From Paraflavitalea soli (lineage in GTDB: Bacteria; Bacteroidota; Bacteroidia; Chitinophagales; Chitinophagaceae): DNA of 64,000 bases. Within the stretch, counting starts at the first letter, position 1. Every line of letters begins with the position of its first letter. Positions 17,184 to 19,946 of this stretch are shown in pieces. The notes beneath the pieces were generated by a model. The model searched no databases. It saw only the letters and a list, made by a program, of their open reading frames with translations, and had not been told where the DNA came from. The stretch covers positions 1,368,546-1,432,545 of the forward strand of contig NZ_CP032157.1 of the NCBI RefSeq assembly GCF_003555545.1. The letters run 5' to 3'. Position numbers and translations under genes: made by a program.

Positions 17184-17765
17184 ATGTTTGATCAAATAGA
17201 TGCATCGGTGGCTAAATATGTGCAGCTGACTGAAGTAGAAAAGGAAATATTCCATGGTTTGCTGAAGCATAAGAAAGTAAAGAAGAAACAGTTCCTATTG
17301 CAGGAAGGGGAGGTATGTGCTTTTGAAAACTTTATTATTAAAGGTTGTATCCGGCTTTATTTTATTGACAAGGAGGGCGTGGAAACCATTCTTTATTTCG
17401 CTGTGGAGAACTGGTGGGTGAGTGATCTGGCCAGCTTTATGGATCAGACGCCTTCGAATCAGTTTATAGAAACGCTGGAGGATTGTGAGCTGTTACAGCT
17501 TGATTACCGCTCCAAGAATGAGCTGCTGGAAAAGGTGCCTAAAATGGAAAAGTATTATCGCATACTCTTACAACGTTCAATGGGTGTGCTGCAACAGCGA
17601 TTCTATGCCAATGTTTCTCAAACAGCGGAGGAGCGCTACCTGGCCTTCCTGGAAAAATACCCGCAAGTGGTGCAGCGGGTTCCGCAGCACCAGATTGCAC
17701 GGTATATTGGTGTATCCCCGGAATTTCTTAGTAAAGTGAAAAGTACTTTGTATAAGAAGCACTGA
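17184..17765 (+). CDS. Crp/Fnr family transcriptional regulator
   Basis: The 193-residue protein has an N-terminal cyclic-nucleotide-binding-like beta-roll (about 20-125, 'FLLQEGEVCAFENFIIKGCIRLYFIDKEG') and a C-terminal HTH (about 150-190, 'VPQHQIARYIGVSPEFLSKVKS'). The phosphate-binding cassette of true CAP (with the key Arg and Ser) is not evident, so the effector is probably not cAMP. Similar Bacteroidota regulators often lie beside genes for pirin, nitroreductase and short-chain dehydrogenases. Here the convergent nitroreductase gene and the pirin gene further on carry an identical upstream motif, which makes them candidate targets. Confidence 0.93.
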   Translation: MFDQIDASVAKYVQLTEVEKEIFHGLLKHKKVKKKQFLLQEGEVCAFENFIIKGCIRLYFIDKEGVETILYFAVENWWVSDLASFMDQTPSNQFIETLEDCELLQLDYRSKNELLEKVPKMEKYYRILLQRSMGVLQQRFYANVSQTAEERYLAFLEKYPQVVQRVPQHQIARYIGVSPEFLSKVKSTLYKKH

Positions 17766-17771
17766 CAGGCA

Positions 17772-18089
17772 CTATGCCTTCTGTGGCGCCAGCGCCGCCA
17801 ATATCTCATTCTCCAATAAGCCGCTGCCTCCACCATAATGCCGGATCACAATGATTGCGGGGTCTATTTGCTGCAATGCTTCCTTTAATATATTTTCTTC
17901 TTCGGTATTAATGCCGGCACATAACAAAGCCAGGTCAAATGATGCTTTGCGGGCGGTTGCTATAGCTTCTTCGTTGGTAAGGACAGCTGTACCAGTCCAT
18001 TTACCCGGCACATTGATGAGCCTTTGCATTACCTGCATGATCTCTGCATTGCGGCCAATGGCCAGGATATTGAGTAATTTCTTTTCCAT
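17772..18089 (-). CDS. Receiver-like protein lacking the phospho-acceptor Asp
   Basis: The 105-residue product resembles a degenerate response-regulator receiver: strand 1 'LLNILAIGRN', and strand 3 'FDLALLCAGI', where the phosphorylated Asp of true receivers is Cys. 'PAIIVIRHYGGGSGLL' near the end has a conserved-looking Gly-rich turn. With no output domain it may act as a protein-binding module. The gene starts 11 bases after the nitroreductase stop on the same strand and is probably cotranscribed with it. Its ATG is complementary to 18087-18089. Function is otherwise unknown. Confidence 0.75.
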   Translation of the reverse strand: MEKKLLNILAIGRNAEIMQVMQRLINVPGKWTGTAVLTNEEAIATARKASFDLALLCAGINTEEENILKEALQQIDPAIIVIRHYGGGSGLLENEILAALAPQKA

Positions 18090-18100
18090 ACCAGCACTGT

Positions 18101-18679
18101 TTAATTGAGTAAGGAAGTAAATTCAGTTAATGCCTTACGGGTGCGAGGGCTTGTTTCCCTTGTTTTGTAAGGCTCCTGTAGTTTCTCGGCCACATCGGAA
18201 TAACCGAGGGCCATCACACTTACCACTTCTTCGGTTACGGGCAGATCAAGCAGGTCGGCTAACTTGTGTTTATCAAAGCCAGCCATCAGGTGACCGGAAA
18301 TATCCATGGATTGGGCCTGCAACAGCATGAAGGAATGGAACATACCGGCATCGTGCATGTAATAGGCATTCTTTTGTTGGGAGTCGGGCATCTCTTTGAT
18401 GCCAATGCTCACTACCAGGGCGGCTGCATGTTTTGTCCAGGGTTGATTGCCGGGCAGCAGGGTACTCCATATTTTCTCAAATCCTTCGGTGCCATGGAAG
18501 GCATATACCTGTCGCCAAGGTTGGGTATTGTTGGCGCTGGGCGCCCAGGAACCTGCTTCCAGAATAGTGAGCAAGTCTTTTTCAGCTATTGCTTTATCGG
18601 AAAAGGAGCGTGGGCTCCAACGTTTTTTGATGAGGTCTATGACGGGGAATTGTGTGTTGGCTGTTTTAACTGTGTTCAT
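18101..18679 (-). CDS. Nitroreductase family protein
   Basis: The 192-residue protein has family motifs 'IKKRWSPRSFSDKAI' (Arg residues for FMN phosphate), 'LEAGSWAPSANNTQPW' (FMN/substrate pocket) and a C-terminal 'VVSVMALGYSD'. Nitroreductases are FMN-dependent, NAD(P)H-using homodimers that reduce nitro-compounds, quinones or enones; the physiological substrate is unknown. Length fits the short group (180-200 residues). A -7-like box TAACTTTA (minus strand, 18705-18712) lies 25 bases before the ATG, with the conserved 24-base motif 20 bases further upstream, the same arrangement as at the pirin gene. Confidence 0.93.
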   Translation of the reverse strand: MNTVKTANTQFPVIDLIKKRWSPRSFSDKAIAEKDLLTILEAGSWAPSANNTQPWRQVYAFHGTEGFEKIWSTLLPGNQPWTKHAAALVVSIGIKEMPDSQQKNAYYMHDAGMFHSFMLLQAQSMDISGHLMAGFDKHKLADLLDLPVTEEVVSVMALGYSDVAEKLQEPYKTRETSPRTRKALTEFTSLLN

Positions 18680-18704: not shown

Positions 18705-18756
18705 TAAAGTTACCACGAAGGGTAGGGGTGTTCCATTAAGGTAGATTAAGAAATGC
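18705..18756 (-). promoter_or_regulatory. Promoter and shared operator-like motif of the nitroreductase gene
   Basis: Read on the minus strand, a 24-base motif GCATTTCTTAA-N-CTAC-N-TTAATGG (18733-18756) is followed after exactly 20 bases by the -7-like TAACTTTA (18705-18712). The motif contains TTAA-N6-TTAA, a near-palindromic arrangement suitable for a dimeric regulator. The pirin promoter has the same motif at the same spacing. Confidence 0.75.
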
Positions 18757-18790
18757 GGCATTCGGCAATCGAAAATCGGCAATCGGGAAA
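18756..18790. repeat. Heptad tandem repeat (CGGCAAT type, 5 units)
   Basis: Units CGGCATT, CGGCAAT, CGAAAAT, CGGCAAT, CGGGAAA with exact 7-base period. The same unit recurs at 26412-26467 and 48780-48807. Confidence 0.85.
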
Positions 18791-18830
18791 GCCCGGCTTC
18801 GACAGCCCTTCGACAAGCTCCTTTAGATCA

Positions 18831-18861
18831 GGGTGAGCCGCCCTTAGAGGGCGACCCACCC
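18831..18861. repeat. REP-like palindrome
   Basis: GGGTGAGCCGCCCTTA followed by GAGGGCGACCCACCC. Flanking bases (TTCGACAAGCTCCTTTAGA upstream and GACAAGCTCAGCC downstream) are shared with the copy near 52.3 kb, so the repeated unit is larger than the palindrome. Confidence 0.85.
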
Positions 18862-18917
18862 TTCGACAAGGGTGACAAGCTCAGCCCCGCCAAGGCGGGG
18901 TAAACTCTGACAATCAG

Positions 18918-19637
18918 TTATGGATTCATGGGTACATCAATGATGAGGAGCTGCGCGTTGTCTGTTTCAGCTATCAGGTTCACCGAAGCAGCGTTCTCGA
19001 TGGCTAGGGCATCGCGTTGTTGCAGTTGATGGCCATCTATTGTGAATGACCCATTGATAACGAAAGCATAGACGCCATTGCCATTTTGTTGAATATTATA
19101 TAGGGTTTGCTGCGCTTTATTGAAAATACCCATGCTAAACCAGGCATTTTGTTGAATAGATGTGCCTTCGTTGTTGGGAGCCGGTGCTATGAATGGCAGG
19201 AGCTTGTTCTGCATTTTCTCTTTGGAAAGTGTGATCTGGTCATAGCGGGGCGTAACGTTCAGCTGATTGGGGAATACCCATATCTGCAGAAATTGAGCCT
19301 GCCTGTCGGGATAATGATTGTATTCACTGTGAAATACACCGGTACCGGTGCTCATGACCTGTACTTCTCCCTCGCTGATCACCCTGGTATTACCCAGGTT
19401 GTCCTTGTGTTCCAAGGCACCGCTAAGGGGAATGCTGATGATCTCCATATTGTCGTGCGGATGTAATCCAAAACCTTTTCCTCCTTCTACCACATCATCA
19501 TTTAAGACGCGTAAGGCGCCAAAATGAACTCTTTCAGGATTGTAATAGCCGGCAAAACTAAAACTCTGGTAACTGTTGAGCCAGCCATGATTGGCATGGC
19601 CACGGGTGTGTGCTTTGTGTTCGGTATATGTTGTCAT
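18918..19637 (-). CDS. Pirin family protein
   Basis: The 239-residue product is a bicupin. The first cupin has the metal-binding motif set 'GFGLHPHDNMEIISIPLSG' with 'GVFHSEYNH', giving His/His/Glu-type ligands; 'RVHFGALRVLNDD' is a pirin hallmark. Pirins such as YhaK/YhhW act as redox sensors or quercetin 2,3-dioxygenases; the role here is not known. I chose the ATG complementary to 19635-19637 (protein start 'MTTYTEHKAHTRGH'), because the upstream extension would include the promoter at 19678-19729. It probably shares a regulator with the nitroreductase gene. Confidence 0.94.
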   Translation of the reverse strand: MTTYTEHKAHTRGHANHGWLNSYQSFSFAGYYNPERVHFGALRVLNDDVVEGGKGFGLHPHDNMEIISIPLSGALEHKDNLGNTRVISEGEVQVMSTGTGVFHSEYNHYPDRQAQFLQIWVFPNQLNVTPRYDQITLSKEKMQNKLLPFIAPAPNNEGTSIQQNAWFSMGIFNKAQQTLYNIQQNGNGVYAFVINGSFTIDGHQLQQRDALAIENAASVNLIAETDNAQLLIIDVPMNP

Positions 19638-19677
19638 AGTCTGATCTTTAGTTGATTGTGTGCCTATTTTCACTACA

Positions 19678-19729
19678 CAAAAGTAGCTCCGGTTGTTATG
19701 GACAACCATTAATGTAGTTTAAGAAATGC
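19678..19729 (-). promoter_or_regulatory. Promoter and shared operator-like motif of the pirin gene
   Basis: On the minus strand GCATTTCTTAA-N-CTAC-N-TTAATGG (19706-19729) lies exactly 20 bases before TACTTTTG (19678-19685), a full match to TAnnTTTG. The predicted start is about 40 bases before the ATG. Confidence 0.8.
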
Positions 19730-19834
19730 TGTTGATCTGTGTTAAAAAGCGGTGAGCGTGTTTGACCGCGGAAACGAAAGTGGCAAGTAGTTGATTGTTG
19801 CTGACGGGGTTGATCCGGCCCGGGAAGGGCTTAC

Positions 19835-19892
19835 GAAAACGTATCCGAAAACGTTTCAGTAAATAAATAGTCTGTTTCTGAAAACGATTTCA
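19835..19892 (+). promoter_or_regulatory. Cluster of three LacI-type operators before susC of locus 1
   Basis: GAAAACGTATC (19835-19845), GAAAACGTTTC (19847-19857) and TGAAAACGATTTCA (19879-19892) are CG-centred near-palindromes of the kind bound by LacI/GalR proteins. They lie 55-112 bases before the SusC ATG. From 19846 onward the sequence matches 47268 onward, in front of a lacI gene, including the AGTAAATAAAT spacer and ATCAAGTTTG. The locus is therefore probably controlled by one of the LacI proteins in this window. Confidence 0.8.
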
Positions 19893-19946
19893 GCTTTTTT
19901 TATCAAGTTTGAGTTAGCTATATTCTAACATATAAACTGATTGCTT

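Follow-up and report, generated by a model that had tools for sequence, protein, structure and literature searches.

The window, the 64,000-nucleotide stretch of Paraflavitalea soli DNA analysed here (contig NZ_CP032157.1, positions 1,368,546 to 1,432,545), carries a small cluster of pirin, nitroreductase-family and receiver-like genes on the minus strand, faced by a convergent Crp/Fnr-family regulator gene, with a 24-base motif in front of both the pirin and the nitroreductase gene:

17184-17765, plus strand: Crp/Fnr-family regulator gene, the proposed binder of both operators (PF00027; relative of 3dn7; helix SPEFLSKV)
17772-18089, minus strand: small receiver-like protein gene, 11 bp after the nitroreductase gene and its neighbour in relatives too
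18101-18679, minus strand: nitroreductase-family gene (Pfam PF00881)
18705-18712, minus strand: -7 box TAACTTTA of the nitroreductase promoter, with five of the six specified bases of TAnnTTTG
18733-18756, minus strand: putative operator of the nitroreductase promoter, an exact match to the 24-base motif, with its core inverted repeat at 18736-18749
18918-19637, minus strand: pirin gene, quercetinase-type, with two cupin domains (Pfam PF02678 and PF17954)
19678-19685, minus strand: -7 box TACTTTTG of the pirin promoter, fitting TAnnTTTG
19706-19729, minus strand: putative operator of the pirin promoter, an exact match to the 24-base motif, with its core inverted repeat at 19709-19722
19732-19745, minus strand: degraded second operator copy TTAACACAGATCAA at pirin, 23 bp upstream of the pirin operator, start to start

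The preliminary description had reported the motif at these two positions on the minus strand, each copy 20 bases before its -7 box in otherwise unrelated sequence, with a Crp/Fnr gene 1 kb away. These observations hold throughout: both copies are exact, the gap from motif to box as read from the sequence is exactly 20 nt at both promoters, the sequences flanking the two copies share no likeness, and the regulator gene lies ~970 bp from the nearer copy. At the core of the motif lies TTAA-N6-TTAA, an inverted repeat of 14 bp, with TGG after it. The copy at 19732-19745 reads TTGATCTGTGTTAA on the plus strand, and upstream of the nitroreductase operator in the window no second copy was found. The receiver-like gene is probably carried on the same transcript as the nitroreductase gene; neither Pfam nor NCBIfam gives its product a family above cut-off, and in various genomes it stays next to pirin or nitroreductase. 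The longest pirin open reading frame begins at 19709, within the operator, adding an extra stretch (19638-19709); the start was taken at 19637 because the proteins of relatives are 239-242 aa long.

The search of the genome and relatives suggested in the preliminary description was carried out. No further copy of the motif was found in the window at three or fewer mismatches, and none in 100 dinucleotide-preserving shuffles of it. Across the P. soli genome (8,443,189 bases, one contig), CTTAANCTACNTTAATGG occurs with at most one mismatch at two places only, these two promoters; at up to two mismatches there are eight places, the two and six more, against nine for a reversed control pattern, and the six extra places are at chance level. 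The complete pattern of site, N20 and box has one further weak match in this genome, at 1196957, 151 bp from the next open reading frame, which we take to be chance.

Conservation of the sites and their linkage to Crp/Fnr genes

The genus was sampled through five genomes, of which G002, G004, G001 and G003 are the congeners. G002 and G004 keep the same order of pirin, nitroreductase, receiver-like gene and convergent Crp/Fnr gene, with such a site at each of the two promoters, 20 bases from a -7-like box each time, and with a good second operator copy at pirin, starting 23 bp farther upstream (14 bp plus 9). Several relatives, these two congeners among them, have a second repeat at that distance, at loci read individually. 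Neither G001 nor G003 has the motif or close orthologues of regulator and pirin: their best matches are 40% and 41% identical to the regulator, compared with 81-82% for G004 and G002, and 28% and 27% identical to pirin. Regulator orthologue, pirin orthologue and motif are all present in three of the five genus genomes and all absent from the other two, a pattern that counts as one gain or loss and not as several because the genes form one cluster. Beyond the genus, G019 carries a perfect palindrome, TTAATCTAGATTAA, at pirin, with the same 20-nt spacing before a poor box, CAACTTTA. Pirin is widespread, found in 56 of 60 family genomes, and the nitroreductase is rarer, with any match, mostly a weak one, in 12 of the 60.

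Searched across 195 family genomes with at most one mismatch, the arrangement of site, 20-base gap and -7 box gave 29 matches in 24 genomes, compared with seven for the reversed control. A looser search (up to two mismatches, 394 genomes) returned 147 distinct site rows among the matches listed; only the one-mismatch search has a summed reversed control, and many of the 147 rows listed are evidently chance matches, some of them inside genes. Among the matches listed, 22 rows have one mismatch or none, and a simple ORF caller places 20 of them in intergenic sequence; a Crp/Fnr gene on the same strand ends no more than 100 bp upstream in at least 26 of the 147.

Linkage of this kind has also been observed in a survey that made no use of the motif, covering 111 Crp/Fnr loci (110 distinct proteins): 22 paralogues from the P. 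soli genome, a 23rd and weak match being omitted, and 89 family loci (29, with 60 added in score order after passing over six places that were already included), all chosen by likeness to the window regulator. On the downstream side of each gene, all inverted repeats with arms of 5 bp were scored relative to all -7-like boxes. Perfect inverted repeats 3' of the gene peak 22 nt before the box (eight at 22 and two at 23, with a mean of 0.65 per offset), and upstream of the same genes there is no peak at that offset. With the operator caller limited to offsets 22 and 23, an operator was called at 35 of the 83 genes with a co-directional neighbour and none at the other 48, where 200 mononucleotide shuffles gave 3.1 on average and never more than nine; Crp/Fnr genes therefore recurrently have their own operator and target next downstream, an arrangement that includes the spacing found in the window. 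Pairs of repeats at a fixed distance, scored in the same agnostic manner at a loose threshold, did not peak clearly at 23 bp, where 12 were counted (mean 7.2; 15 at 41 bp), so that the claim of a tandem arrangement rests on the loci read individually. A tree of 140 Crp/Fnr proteins served for grouping only.

The preliminary description had read the two sites as a Crp/Fnr-controlled promoter pair, and conservation in congeners, the palindromic form of the site, its fixed spacing, the linkage to Crp/Fnr genes and the linkage of regulator orthologues to pirin are all consistent with that reading. On such comparisons, a class II Crp/Fnr activator, most likely the product of 17184-17765, probably uses the motif as its operator, serving pirin at one promoter and the nitroreductase with the receiver-like gene at the other. 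Confidence in this assignment is slightly reduced by a TTG before the pirin box and by regulator orthologues beside which no site was found, both described below.

Identity of the regulator and half-site recognition

The N-terminal part of the 17184-17765 protein is a cyclic-nucleotide-binding-type domain (PF00027, 40.9 bits, cut-off 27.5), and its C-terminus matches no Pfam helix-turn-helix model at E ≤ 0.001, the helix region aligning with those of relatives. The closest solved relative by sequence is a cyclic nucleotide binding regulatory protein (PDB 3dn7; E 5.6e-48, residues 9-187). The protein is neither CRP proper (33.7 bits, against an NCBIfam equivalog cut-off of 266) nor FNR proper (24.8 bits, against 228), and it has no FNR-type N-terminal cysteine cluster, its cysteines standing only at 45, 55 and 101.

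With some 22 Crp/Fnr-like genes in the P. soli genome (22 matches with E no higher than 1.1e-11, among them L230, whose end resembles that of an AraC protein), the identity of the regulator is a point that we infer, and the sites could be real Crp/Fnr operators served mainly by another paralogue, or by several with overlapping specificity. The number of paralogues favours this alternative, as does the paralogue L232 (helix TQVTLSRI), which adjoins an operator of its own, TTAACCTATGTTAA, close to the window motif; the window regulator, moreover, is convergent to the operon and does not lie directly before a site, which counts against it. Among the helices of the P. soli paralogues that were read, however, a PEF..SK helix occurs in the 17184-17765 protein only, and orthologues of this regulator stay with the same pirin cluster in congeners and in other genera and are missing along with it from G001 and G003. 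Elsewhere, they stand directly before pirin: at L242 and L245 (genomes G043 and G109), 66-67 bp separate the end of the orthologue from the gene, with TTGAACTAGTTCAA in that gap. Service by other paralogues is accordingly considered unlikely. Outside the family, at L329-L331, a regulator lies 86-90 bp before a gene with, by our reading, a pirin-like start; the caller found no operator at two of these loci and an unconvincing one at the third. Crp/Fnr genes of the P. soli genome with an operator and target directly downstream comprise L214, L215, L217, L219 and L232 in the agnostic scan, and L220 as read by eye.

Comparison of regulators with adjacent operators suggests that the half-site follows the regulator in part. 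Contacts between CRP and DNA would predict G or C at the operator ends where Arg180 is present. Where an R occupies the position of CRP Arg180, four of five operators have G as their first base or C as their last, compared with none of 30 where it does not, shared ancestry being ignored in these counts. The recognition helix is less informative: orthologues with an identical helix, SPEFLSKV, stand beside TTGAA half-sites in four of four agnostic calls, so the helix hexamer alone does not predict the TTAA of the window, and these sites are a further point in favour of service by other paralogues. At loci where a site was found, QIAR before the helix goes with TTAA-type sites (G000, G002, G004, G005, G010, G019 and G033) and IAS or IAA with TTG-type sites, G038 being mixed; at four QIAR loci (L238, L240, L241 and L247), no site was found in the 1.5-kb flanks.

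A simpler rule, in which a PEF helix would specify A and ETLSR would specify G at the third position of the half-site, was dropped since the agnostic set contradicts it. In the pattern-derived set, the upstream palindromes are TTAA-type beside PEF helices in 14 of 14 cases and carry G beside ETLSR in five of five, these 19 being the rows, out of 36, whose upstream 14-mer has at least four of five arm matches, with the other 17 left out. In the agnostic set, taking all F-type helices, the third base is G in seven, A in seven and C in one.

Promoter geometry and mode of action

Class II activators of the Crp/Fnr type occupy a site near -41.5 or -42.5, 22-23 nt from the -7 box. In Flavobacterium psychrophilum, the TAnnTTTG box is placed at -12 to -5 in the available text of PMC9723704; if that position is carried over from this other species, the operators of the window are centred at about -42.5, and those of relatives with spacing one base shorter at -41.5. 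The preliminary description had envisaged a dimer on TTAA-N6-TTAA at about -33, replacing the -33 box. The inverted-repeat core supports a dimer site, but its centre, as estimated from the Flavobacterium box, lies near -42.5, and the site borders on the -33 region, or overlaps it, instead of standing at it. A role as a mere -33 element was considered, but the perfect inverted repeats of relatives, and their second copy 23 bp upstream, led to its rejection.

On the class II reading, each promoter has a -7 box that can be recognised (TAnnTTTG) and a poor -33 element, and a Crp/Fnr dimer would sit on the 14-bp repeat with its centre at about -42.5, next to RNA polymerase; the activator would drive pirin from one promoter and the nitroreductase with the receiver-like gene from the other, the pirin promoter having a second, degraded operator 23 bp upstream, and the signal would perhaps be quinones or other electrophiles. 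Binding, activation in preference to repression, and the signal are steps that we infer.

Were the neighbouring regulator instead to bind as a repressor, it would cover the -33 region, to which the site extends, and the pirin promoter does contain a possible weak -33 element, a TTG situated 17 nt ahead of the -7 box. In the nitroreductase promoter, though, TTG is absent from the stretch between motif and box, and the tight 22-23 nt spacing with a centre near -42.5 is the geometry of class II activation, making repression quite improbable. Reading by another family of regulators (AraC, or MarR/HxlR type) or by an alternative sigma factor seems very improbable: an AraC-like gene fragment does lie, by our reading of the locus, directly before the G019 pirin site, and TTAA-N6-TTAA also fits a direct repeat at 10 bp, but relatives have better palindromes (TTAATCTAGATTAA, TTGAACTAGTTCAA), the sites are recurrently linked to Crp/Fnr genes, and a sigma element would leave the second copy at 23 bp unexplained. 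Chance or a recent local duplication, which the presence of only two copies in the genome might suggest, is scarcely credible given the unrelated flanks, the empty shuffles and the sites at both places in congeners.

Gene content, signal and comparison with known systems

In Escherichia coli, class II CRP and FNR promoters carry an inverted repeat whose 5-bp arms flank a 4-bp centre, near -41.5 and touching polymerase, sometimes with a second site upstream. The Paraflavitalea sites resemble these in the dimensions of the repeat, which forms perfect palindromes in relatives, and differ in their half-site (TTAAT/TTAAA in the window, as opposed to TGTGA or TTGAT), in a -7 box that is the Bacteroidota TAnnTTTG, and in a regulator without the N-terminal cysteine cluster of FNR or a CRP-level score.

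That the two promoters form a small redox regulon, as first proposed, fits the gene content, and we would narrow it to quinone or electrophile detoxification. The window itself contributes pirin, nitroreductase and receiver-like gene only; the clusters of orthologous regulators add, depending on the genome, YceI, a glyoxalase/dioxygenase-superfamily protein, a phospholipase/carboxylesterase and further pirins, the carboxylesterase of relatives scoring 36 bits against a cut-off of 325 for the MhqD model. In Bacillus and Staphylococcus, nitroreductases, ring-cleavage dioxygenases and a carboxylesterase are placed under MarR-type quinone sensors in the available text of PMC6798810. As far as that text describes them, the MhqR, YodB and CatR regulons of Bacillus subtilis and the QsrR regulon of Staphylococcus aureus share the same broad enzyme families with the clusters of the relatives. 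They are governed by MarR-type repressors, whereas the regulator here is of Crp/Fnr type and a proposed activator, and pirins and YceI are added. By this analogy, quinone sensing by the window regulator is plausible. Cys45 and Cys55 are conserved in all 20 of the closest aligned sequences, the window's included, and in 33 and 31 of 40, respectively, which would be compatible with thiol sensing.

A broader proposal may be offered tentatively: that Bacteroidota have made Crp/Fnr proteins into a large set of local activators, one regulator to one promoter, and that one branch, to which the window regulator belongs, senses quinones or electrophiles, perhaps through Cys45 and Cys55, in place of the MarR-type MhqR and YodB of Gram-positives. 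The regulon was not met in a full-text literature search, judged on titles and the beginnings of abstracts among the matches listed, with most subscription journals outside its coverage. An uncharacterised branch of Bacteroidota Crp/Fnr proteins thereby gains a predicted operator, promoter geometry, target genes and a testable signal. The many paralogues standing beside their own putative operators make up a natural series in which DNA specificity could be compared and a Crp/Fnr recognition code read, and they suggest the use that one genome may make of some 22 Crp/Fnr-like genes.

Two further sets of repeats lie close to the operators. Between pirin and nitroreductase, 18760-18915 is occupied by GC-rich repeats with inverted arms, from which the 18-mer CAGCCCTTCGACAAGCTC recurs at 19 genome places with at most one mismatch (control, 0); this recurrence, with a gap between the two genes of 238 bp in the window compared with 120-126 bp in two congeners, gives the stretch the look of a dispersed repeat. 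Between pirin and a divergent SusC-like gene, 19831-19893 contains palindromic repeats of the GAAAACGTTTTC kind, similar in congeners G002 and G004, which we take to resemble LacI-type operators.
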